Notes under the pieces: model-generated | What the model saw: the letters and a program-made list of their open reading frames with translations, nothing else | What the model was told of the DNA's origin: nothing | Database searches by the model: none | Program-made: the position numbers and the translations under genes | Source of the DNA: a bacterium | Lineage (GTDB): Bacteria; Patescibacteriota; Doudnabacteria; UBA920; VMFF01 | Reading direction: 5' to 3' | Length of the DNA: 36,194 nucleotides | Assembly (NCBI GenBank): GCA_021842385.1 | Contig: JAKCAE010000009.1 | Span: 1-36,194 of the forward strand | Shown here: one piece after another, positions 6,850 through 30,518 of the stretch | Numbering within the stretch: position 1 is the stretch's first letter | How the letters are laid out: every line of letters starts with the position of its first letter

Positions 6850-7515
6850 TTATTTGAAACTTACTAGTACAGTTATTTCTCCCTTTATATTACCTCTTGC
6901 TTGCAGTTTGTTTAAGACCTCTGCAGCTGTTCCTCTGATGAATTCTTCGTGGAGTTTAGTTAATTCTCGGGCTACCACAACTTTTGCACCTGGCCAAGAG
7001 TTTGCAATGAAGCCAACACTTTTTATTATCCGATGCGGCGATTCATAGAAAATGATGGTTGCTTCTAAGTCTTCCGCGCTTTTCAACTCATTGGTAAATT
7101 TTATCTCAGTCTTTGGGACAAAGCCCAAGAATATGAATTTGTCAGTTGGTAATCCTGATGCACAAAGTGCCGTTATTGCAGCATTAGGACCTGGTATTGG
7201 TGTTATTTCTATTCCTCTATCAACTGCTTCTCGCACGATTCTAAATCCTGGGTCTGAGATGCCCGGCGTACCGGCGTCACTTAAAAGAACAGCTTTTTTT
7301 CCATGCAACTCTTTTAAAATTATTGGCAATTTTTGTTGTTCGTTGTGTTCAGCGAATTGAATAAATTTTTTTGAAGGTATATTTAGGTACTCGAAAAGAC
7401 GTTTTGAGTATGATGGATTTTCTGCGATGACTAGATCACATTCAGCAAGGGTCTGTTTTGCTCTTTCAGAAAGGTCTGAAAGGTTTCCTATTGGGGTTGA
7501 AAGTATGTAGAGCAT
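6850..7515 (-). CDS. rsmI: 16S rRNA (cytidine1402-2'-O)-methyltransferase RsmI
   Basis: LYILSTPIGNLSDLSERA, LLSDAGTPGISDPGF, PGPNAAITALCASGLPTDKFIFLGF. Confidence 0.95.
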   Translation of the reverse strand: MLYILSTPIGNLSDLSERAKQTLAECDLVIAENPSYSKRLFEYLNIPSKKFIQFAEHNEQQKLPIILKELHGKKAVLLSDAGTPGISDPGFRIVREAVDRGIEITPIPGPNAAITALCASGLPTDKFIFLGFVPKTEIKFTNELKSAEDLEATIIFYESPHRIIKSVGFIANSWPGAKVVVARELTKLHEEFIRGTAAEVLNKLQARGNIKGEITVLVSFK

Positions 7516-7574
7516 TGTTTTATGTTTACCACTTGTATTTTAGCAGGAAGTGTAAGTTTAGTCAGTTTTTATTA

Positions 7575-7604
7575 GCAAAACAAAACTCCCCCAGTAAGGA
7601 GAGT
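7575..7604 (-). terminator. Intrinsic terminator of the candidate ncRNA
   Basis: minus: ACTCTCC TTACTG GGGGAGT TTTTGTTTT. Confidence 0.65.
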
Positions 7605-7754
7605 TCTGTTGAAAAGTTCCACTCAAAGAGCTATTTTACTATTGCAATGCACTTATCGCAATTAATAATGTTAGTTAAGCTAACATTTTGTTTTTATATT
7701 CTATTGTATTTTATTTTTGTTTCAATTCACCTCGCGGCGAATTTGAACTTTTCT
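7575..7754 (-). ncRNA. Candidate structured non-coding RNA, ~180 nt (family unknown)
   Basis: Minus promoter TTGACC-N17-TATAAT at 7789-7761; 5' GAAAAGUUC (7753-7745) complementary to GAACUUUUC (7619-7611); GNRA hairpin AAUUCGCC-GCGA-GGUGAAUU; hairpin AAUGUUAG-CUUAA-CUAACAUU; terminator ACUCUCC-UUACUG-GGGGAGU-UUUUGUUUU; no plausible ORF. Confidence 0.6.
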
Positions 7755-7760
7755 GTTACT

Positions 7761-7789
7761 ATTATATCAGAAAAAAGCTTCTTGGTCAA
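7761..7789 (-). promoter_or_regulatory. Sigma-70-type promoter of the ncRNA
   Basis: TTGACC-N17-TATAAT on minus strand (GGTCAA 7784-7789, ATTATA 7761-7766). Confidence 0.75.
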
Positions 7790-7811
7790 CAGTTTGTCTC
7801 GGTGATATACT
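7782..7811 (+). promoter_or_regulatory. Divergent promoter for the membrane protein gene at 7835
   Basis: TTGGTC-N18-TATACT; the -35 shares bases with the minus-strand -35. Confidence 0.55.
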
Positions 7812-29432: not shown

Positions 29433-30518
29433 ATGAAGAACATTTTAGTAATCTATACATCAATAGGTTTAGGTCATAAAAAGATAGCAGAAAATATTGC
29501 TGCTGTTTTACAGAGCGATTCAAACAATAAAGTCGAGCTTTTGGATCTTTATGATGTAGAATCAGGAGGCTTAAAAAAATATGGTGAAAAACTCTATTAC
29601 TTCTTTTTGAAATATTCCCCTTGGATTTGGGAGTTTTTTTACATCAACAAGATTTTTGTTGTGCTAACCCTGCCTTTCAGAACATTTGTTGCGGGCTTTA
29701 ATTCTAAAAAGTTAGCCAGAGTTTTAATAAACAAACATTATGATGTAGTCGTTTCCACTCACGCAAACTCTTCAGCAATAGTTTCATACCTCAAAAGTCA
29801 AGGCATGTATACTGGGAAGTTTGTTATTGCTTTTTCTGATTATCATCTGCATAGATATTGGCTGCATGATAATGCGGATTTGTACCTTGCAAATATAGAC
29901 GAACAAAAGCAAGAAATGGTTTCTCGTGGAATAGCTCCTAAAAAGATAGTGGTATCTGGTATGACGCTTCGAAAAGAAGAGTCTGTAGCTGATAAACAAA
30001 AGGTGAGAAACAAATTTAATTTACATGAAACTGACAAAGTAATAGCTGTTTTAGCAGGTAGTCGGGGTTTTGGCATGAACTCAGAGATTATCGATCAACT
30101 CGCAAAAATAGACGCGTCGATTTTTGTAGCCTGTGGAACAAACGAAGAAACAAGAACGCACTTAATTCAAAAATATAGAAATTTTTCTAATATAAAAGTT
30201 TTAGGTTACGTAAACACTAGGGAACTCGCGGCAATCGCAAACGTAGTTGTTACTAAACCTGGGGGTTTAACAGTTGCAGAATGTTTAGAACAGCGTGTTC
30301 CGATTTTAGTTTCTCATTTTTTGCCGGGTCAGGAACGATTAAATATAGAGTATCTAAAAAGGCATGGTTTAATAATGCCTTTGTCTACAGATTACTATAA
30401 TGCTGTTAAACACGAATTAGTGACTGGTGCGTTCGCTGCTAAGTTAAAAGAGAACCCTGATGTGAAACTGATTGTGCGATATGGGGAGGGTATTTGTGAA
30501 GCAATCGCAAAGCTTTAA
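29433..30518 (+). CDS. Glycosyltransferase, MGDG synthase/MurG-like
   Basis: YTSIGLGHKKIAENIAAVL, SDYHLHRYW, GYVNTRELAAIANVVVTKPGGLTVAECLEQRVPILVSHFLPGQERLN. Confidence 0.85.
   Translation: MKNILVIYTSIGLGHKKIAENIAAVLQSDSNNKVELLDLYDVESGGLKKYGEKLYYFFLKYSPWIWEFFYINKIFVVLTLPFRTFVAGFNSKKLARVLINKHYDVVVSTHANSSAIVSYLKSQGMYTGKFVIAFSDYHLHRYWLHDNADLYLANIDEQKQEMVSRGIAPKKIVVSGMTLRKEESVADKQKVRNKFNLHETDKVIAVLAGSRGFGMNSEIIDQLAKIDASIFVACGTNEETRTHLIQKYRNFSNIKVLGYVNTRELAAIANVVVTKPGGLTVAECLEQRVPILVSHFLPGQERLNIEYLKRHGLIMPLSTDYYNAVKHELVTGAFAAKLKENPDVKLIVRYGEGICEAIAKL

Follow-up and report, generated by a model that had tools for sequence, protein, structure and literature searches.

A conserved predicted small RNA of the Patescibacteria order that holds Candidatus Doudnabacteria shares an A-rich element with putative mRNA leaders

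Small RNAs of the CsrB/CsrC type are stand-alone decoys that present a motif of mRNA leaders, in repeated GGA loops, and titrate the factor that binds those leaders. The RNA described here would resemble them in mechanism, as titration of a motif is proposed for it below, but it carries a single copy of a different, A-rich motif and no repeated GGA loops, and its binding factor is putative. The 6S RNA (SsrS, RF00013) is similar in other respects, being a stand-alone RNA of about 180 nt with a closing stem and a terminator; it differs from the present RNA in that the latter has several hairpins and an invariant A-rich linker, obtains no score with the 6S model, and does not have a central bubble in a long rod. 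In Bacteroidetes, whose start regions are A-rich and lack a Shine-Dalgarno sequence, non-Shine-Dalgarno features of the mRNA upstream of the start codon tune initiation (PMC6847099). The leader element reported here is distinguished from those start regions by its specific sequence, GAAACMAAAAYMAAAA, by its location downstream of a promoter and often after a hairpin, and by its enrichment before exported or membrane proteins. Catalogues of candidate structured RNAs (PMC2864571, PMC8632094, PMC8040213) contain comparable intergenic, covarying RNAs that are annotated without a function; the present RNA appears to be set apart from these by its occurrence in one Patescibacteria order and by the element that it has in common with mRNA leaders.

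A sequence-only reading of the locus had called the RNA undescribed, and this description still applies: no Rfam 15 family matched it, and no account of either the RNA or the leader element was found in the literature, of which our coverage is incomplete. Judged from its sequence, the RNA appears to be a new family of intergenic structured small RNA, unusual in sharing an element with mRNA leaders. Sequence is the basis of the analysis throughout, and the genomes used are draft metagenome assemblies. Patescibacteria are reduced cells that probably rely on surface proteins to exploit other organisms, and their small RNAs and translation signals have hardly been explored.

The features of the predicted RNA are listed in Table 1 with their positions in the window, that is, the whole stretch of 36,194 nucleotides that was analysed. 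The promoter that the sequence-only reading had proposed for a start near 7754 is present as described, with a TTGACC box at 7789-7784, a 17-nt spacer and a TATAAT box at 7766-7761; it matches the consensus at 11 of 12 positions and has in addition a TG before the -10 box. The proposed closing stem (P1) was likewise confirmed as 9 bp of perfect complementarity between GAAAAGUUC (7753-7745) and GAACUUUUC (7619-7611), and the GNRA hairpin, A-rich linker, 8-bp hairpin, AUUGC...GCAAU pairing and GC-rich terminator all reappear in the predicted fold. The minimum free energy of this fold is -54.5 kcal/mol, compared with -28.6 +/- 3.3 kcal/mol for 200 dinucleotide shuffles (z = -7.8), none of which was as low. 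The stability of the 7754-7575 RNA is far beyond chance.

Table 1. Positions of the predicted RNA, its parts and the neighbouring gene in the window
Feature	Position	Strand	Evidence
Whole predicted RNA, ~180 nt, start A at 7754	7575..7754	-	Fold z -7.8; covariance-model homologues with covariation
Promoter TTGACC-17-TATAAT, with TG of extended -10	7761..7789	-	11/12 consensus matches
Closing stem P1, 5' arm GAAAAGUUC	7745..7753	-	Helix 1: 95.9% of cells paired, 4/10 pairs with two-sided changes
Closing stem P1, 3' arm GAACUUUUC	7611..7619	-	Predicted fold and structure score
Hairpin P2, AAUUCGCC-GCGA-GGUGAAUU	7724..7743	-	Fold and alignment; stem and length differ among genera
A-rich linker, 37 nt, between P2 and P3	7687..7723	-	Nearly invariant across copies
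Linker core GAAACAAAAAUAAAA, the shared leader element	7723-7709	-	Order-specific enrichment
Hairpin P3, AAUGUUAG-CUUAA-CUAACAUU, 8 bp	7667..7687	-	Two-sided changes at 5/5 counted pairs
Hairpin P4 (AUUGC...GCAAU), AUUGCGAU-AAGUGC-AUUGCAAU	7641..7662	-	Two-sided changes at 6/6 counted pairs
Conserved pyrimidine stretch CUCUUU, 5' of the P1 3' arm	7625..7630	-	Alignments; CUUCUU in most f2 copies
Intrinsic terminator, 14-bp hairpin and U-tail	7575..7610	-	Predicted fold
rsmI, outside the RNA, next gene downstream	6850..7515	-	Pfam TP_methylase 2.8e-27
Promoter-like site of rsmI, CTGACT-17-TAAAAT, TG before -10, 3' of terminator	7537..7565	-	

When the window was searched with Rfam 15 at gathering scores, only tRNAs were found, and relaxed scores gave nothing credible in the region of the RNA; the cmscan comparison that had been suggested as a check thus matched no family, 6S included. 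CRISPR-repeat-like Rfam matches (E about 2) were discarded, as they reflect only a hairpin followed by GAAAC. The absence of a plausible ORF, remarked on in the sequence-only reading, was borne out by the homologues, across which no conserved ORF was found inside the RNA. A 115-codon ORF beginning with TTG on the opposite strand (7458-7805) exists mechanically but was rejected, as the homologous locus L051 has no counterpart of at least 50 amino acids.

The genes around the RNA have their best matches on contigs of Candidatus Doudnabacteria. Copies of the RNA were found by BLAST in genomes G001 (85% identical) and G004 (74% identical). More distant copies, upstream of rsmI in family f2, consist of a promoter, AGAAAAGU, the P2 hairpin, the near-invariant linker and a final ACUUUUC, followed by the terminator. 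The homologues belong to two families of the order, f1 (which includes the window copy) and f2, and lie in one conserved neighbourhood upstream of rsmI. A covariance model, R1, was built from 11 f2 copies and contained no f1 copy. It recovered f1 copies at the syntenic place, namely L051 with 55.7 bits (E = 1.6e-8), L066 with 38.8 bits (E = 3.7e-5) and the window copy with 31.7 bits (E = 0.001). Among 49 genomes of the order, strong R1 matches were limited to f1 and f2, and the RNA was not detected by the model in families f3-f5. A second model, R2, gave no convincing copy outside the order among 287 genomes of the phylum, in a search that scored few candidates per genome and may miss weak copies; its weak matches there look like coding or random A-rich sequence.

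Standard pairs fill 94% of the pair cells in the 20 distinct copies, and 25 of 36 pairs have changed on both sides, including every counted pair of P3 and P4. An extra hairpin, P5, follows P4 in family f2 and is missing from the window copy. The covariation score of the 20 copies was 0.506, against 0.158 +/- 0.014 for shuffles and 0.06-0.10 for slid structures; fitting the alignment to the model biases it towards the named structure, but the gap to the slid controls is still large. Compensatory changes in this model-fitted alignment exceed both kinds of control, as expected of a conserved structured RNA, and the search for conservation and covariation upstream of rsmI that had been suggested earlier was therefore successful. 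A real conserved RNA at 7754-7575 is, in our judgement, almost certain.

The linker is the most conserved part of the RNA and is nearly invariant in all copies; by inspection its form is a G followed by AAAYMA repeats. Weak matches to the model proved to be mRNA leaders that have GAAACAAAAAUAAAA in common with the RNA. The strict pattern GAAACMAAAAYMAAAA had 95 matches in the 49 genomes of the order, compared with 6 for the reversed pattern, whereas in 177 other genomes of the phylum there was no excess (about 31 versus 33 reversed, counted by hand). Thirteen of the 95 are copies of the RNA, as judged by position and counted by hand. The motif count is informative only for the strict pattern over many genomes; with two mismatches, the window's own genome showed no excess (71 versus 64). 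When 85 distinct sites were read, a -10-like box was located 12-80 nt upstream in 63 and a candidate start codon close downstream in 47. Once the RNA copies among the fetched loci and the sites within long ORFs had been removed, 76 sites were left; a -10-like box precedes 63 of these and is of the extended type in 50, and the distances cluster at 21-36 nt. By these counts the GAAACMAAAAYMAAAA linker is a predicted 5'-UTR element, recurrent in and specific to this order.

Many of the genes behind the element appear to encode exported or membrane proteins. A strongly hydrophobic N-terminal segment was present in 21 of the 32 genes whose ATG closely follows the element and in 21 of the 153 genes of the order that served as background (Fisher p = 6e-9, odds ratio 12; hydrophobicity serves here as a proxy rather than as a signal-peptide predictor, and the p-value is optimistic as some of the 32 genes are mutual orthologues). 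One element-bearing leader in the window's own genome precedes a CAP-domain protein. The upstream hairpin recurrently has CCAAAAU in its loop; this word occurs at 10 of the 76 sites and its reverse at 1 of 76.

Our preferred reading, to which we give a probability of roughly 0.4, is that the RNA acts as a decoy titrating a leader-binding factor or the ribosome. The RNA would be a terminated transcript with a promoter, a 5' hairpin and the element arranged as in the mRNAs, in which hairpins and a terminator take the place of the start codon. Its closed ring of hairpins would display the GAAAC(A-rich) element unpaired and without a start codon. In trans, the RNA could then compete with leader-bearing mRNAs for the reader of the element, which might be an RNA-binding protein or the 30S subunit acting through the A-rich sequence, and titration of this reader would adjust the synthesis of surface proteins. 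A decoy would be the simplest explanation for the shared element, and we infer this role because the element is presented in a stable ring that has no start codon. As expected of a decoy, the motif of the putative target leaders, GAAACMAAAAYMAAAA, is also found in the RNA; there is one element per RNA, where a decoy such as CsrB would have several copies. Two observations count against a decoy. The leader element is used in families f3-f5, in which the RNA was not detected, so that the element works without the RNA. In addition, a search of 30 genomes of the order did not find Hfq, which binds A-rich RNA, so that the obvious A-rich binder is missing. A wider proposal is that the GAAAC-A-rich 5'-UTR element marks an order-wide regulon of mRNAs for exported and membrane proteins, whose whole surface programme the RNA tunes in two families, with neither Hfq nor 6S RNA found; we regard this as possible though somewhat doubtful.

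An extended -10 sequence (mostly TGCTATAAT or TGCTATACT) lies 5-7 nt 5' to the RNA in all 20 homologues, a terminator hairpin follows it in nearly all, and together with the covarying fold and the lack of a conserved ORF this upholds the original reading as an independent small RNA. The alternative offered at the same time, an attenuated leader for rsmI, is contradicted: we conclude that the RNA is probably not an rsmI leader because the next gene varies among relatives and -10-like sites follow the terminator in most copies. The rsmI ATG does stand at 7515, 60 nt past the 3' end, as had been noted, while relatives may have another gene between. In the window and in genus g4 the RNA is followed by rsmI, in L066 and L051 by nth (endonuclease III), and in most of f2 by a gene of about 92 amino acids, so the same downstream gene is not retained as a cis leader of rsmI would predict. 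A more general cis-acting attenuator, a 5' leader of the 92-aa gene/nth/rsmI/yebC operon that is regulated through terminator readthrough, would account for the finding that in each of the 19 copies whose next gene was read, this gene shares the strand of the RNA and lies 47-213 nt from it. The varying identity of the next gene argues against this, as does the -10-like sequence before the next gene; this sequence is of the extended type in the window, L066 and L051 and -10-like in most other copies (consensus matches rather than mapped starts), examples being TGCTAAAAT in the window and, directly ahead of nth, TGCTATGAT in L066. We noticed no alternative pairing that could act as an anti-terminator, and an attenuator is on the whole improbable. 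A short leader peptide, encoded or remnant, might be started by the AUG that follows the linker in the window and in L066, as it does in real mRNAs, but the frames have 3 and 7 codons, and no AUG is found there in L051 and nearly all f2 copies; this is extremely unlikely. Scarcely less so is a 6S RNA that has diverged and presents RNA polymerase with a mimic of an open promoter. The length, closing stem and stand-alone transcript are similar, and the order is otherwise without a 6S match: the 6S model (RF00013) gave none over the cut-off in 39 of its genomes, in a search that detects the E. coli, B. subtilis and other controls. The window has no Rfam 6S score either, so the 6S likeness first suggested was not sustained, and the consensus is a closing stem with 3-4 separate hairpins in a ring rather than a long rod opened at its centre by a large internal loop. 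An SRP RNA was rejected as well, as no SRP domain IV is recognizable by eye and the small and large bacterial SRP RNA models found nothing in 30 of the order's genomes, among them G000 (the small model detected most controls; B. subtilis was missed by both).

The main rival to a decoy is that A-rich sequence, when unpaired, has a general part in stability or in loading ribosomes; the sequence could be shared for stability or translation only. The RNA would then be a structured small RNA, house-keeping or regulatory, unrelated to mRNA leaders, with a linker of the kind that protects or loads highly expressed transcripts. The very strong conservation of the entire fold rather than of the linker alone, the fixed synteny with vertical descent, and the presence of the element where the RNA is absent are consistent with this; against it, no part is more conserved than the linker, whose sequence is specific (G, then AAAYMA repeats), the reversed pattern being 16 times rarer. 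We consider such a role rather unlikely. Base pairing in trans, between a U-rich P4 loop (AUUUU) and the A-rich leader element or the CAAAAU loops of mRNA leaders, is quite improbable. Most f2 P4 loops do contain AUUUU or GUUUU, complementary to the AAAAY of the element, but complementarity (100) was no greater than for shuffled loop-linker pairings (99.0), the U-run is missing in family f1, window included, and only A-U pairs would form. A pseudoknot between the linker and the P4 loop was rejected, being absent in f1 and not above shuffling.

Some further observations concern individual loci. Extended -10 sequences (TGCTATGAT in L066, TGGTATGAT in L051) occur no more than about 10 nt from the start codon of nth, which suggests that leaderless mRNAs may exist in the order. 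CCAAAAU loops on differing stems were seen just 5' to GAAAC in L230, L247, L253, L260, L272, L276, L277 and L176 (the G000:C23 leader), suggesting that this loop may be a second recognition element of the leaders. An mRNA leader of G043 (L161/L268; G043:C41, about 29874-30052, minus strand) reaches an R1 score of 52.6 bits and is almost a repeat of the RNA's 5' half; the ORF that follows has the hydrophobic N-terminus MEISKEFSLKSTAAILAAFAV. This leader suggests that the RNA and the mRNA leaders may have a common origin. In L218 (G026) and L220 (G022) the leader is long, about 320 nt, has the element close to the promoter and precedes homologous proteins that look secreted; L220 contains another GAAACAAAAACAA farther along. 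Both leaders could be relatives of the RNA that act in cis. Finally, L009/L150 (G023:C43:227-396), close to the end of a contig, holds a divergent RNA copy in which a U-run terminator is not obvious; this copy is followed by ACAAAAACAAAAATG and an ORF, and is possibly the RNA fused to an mRNA leader.
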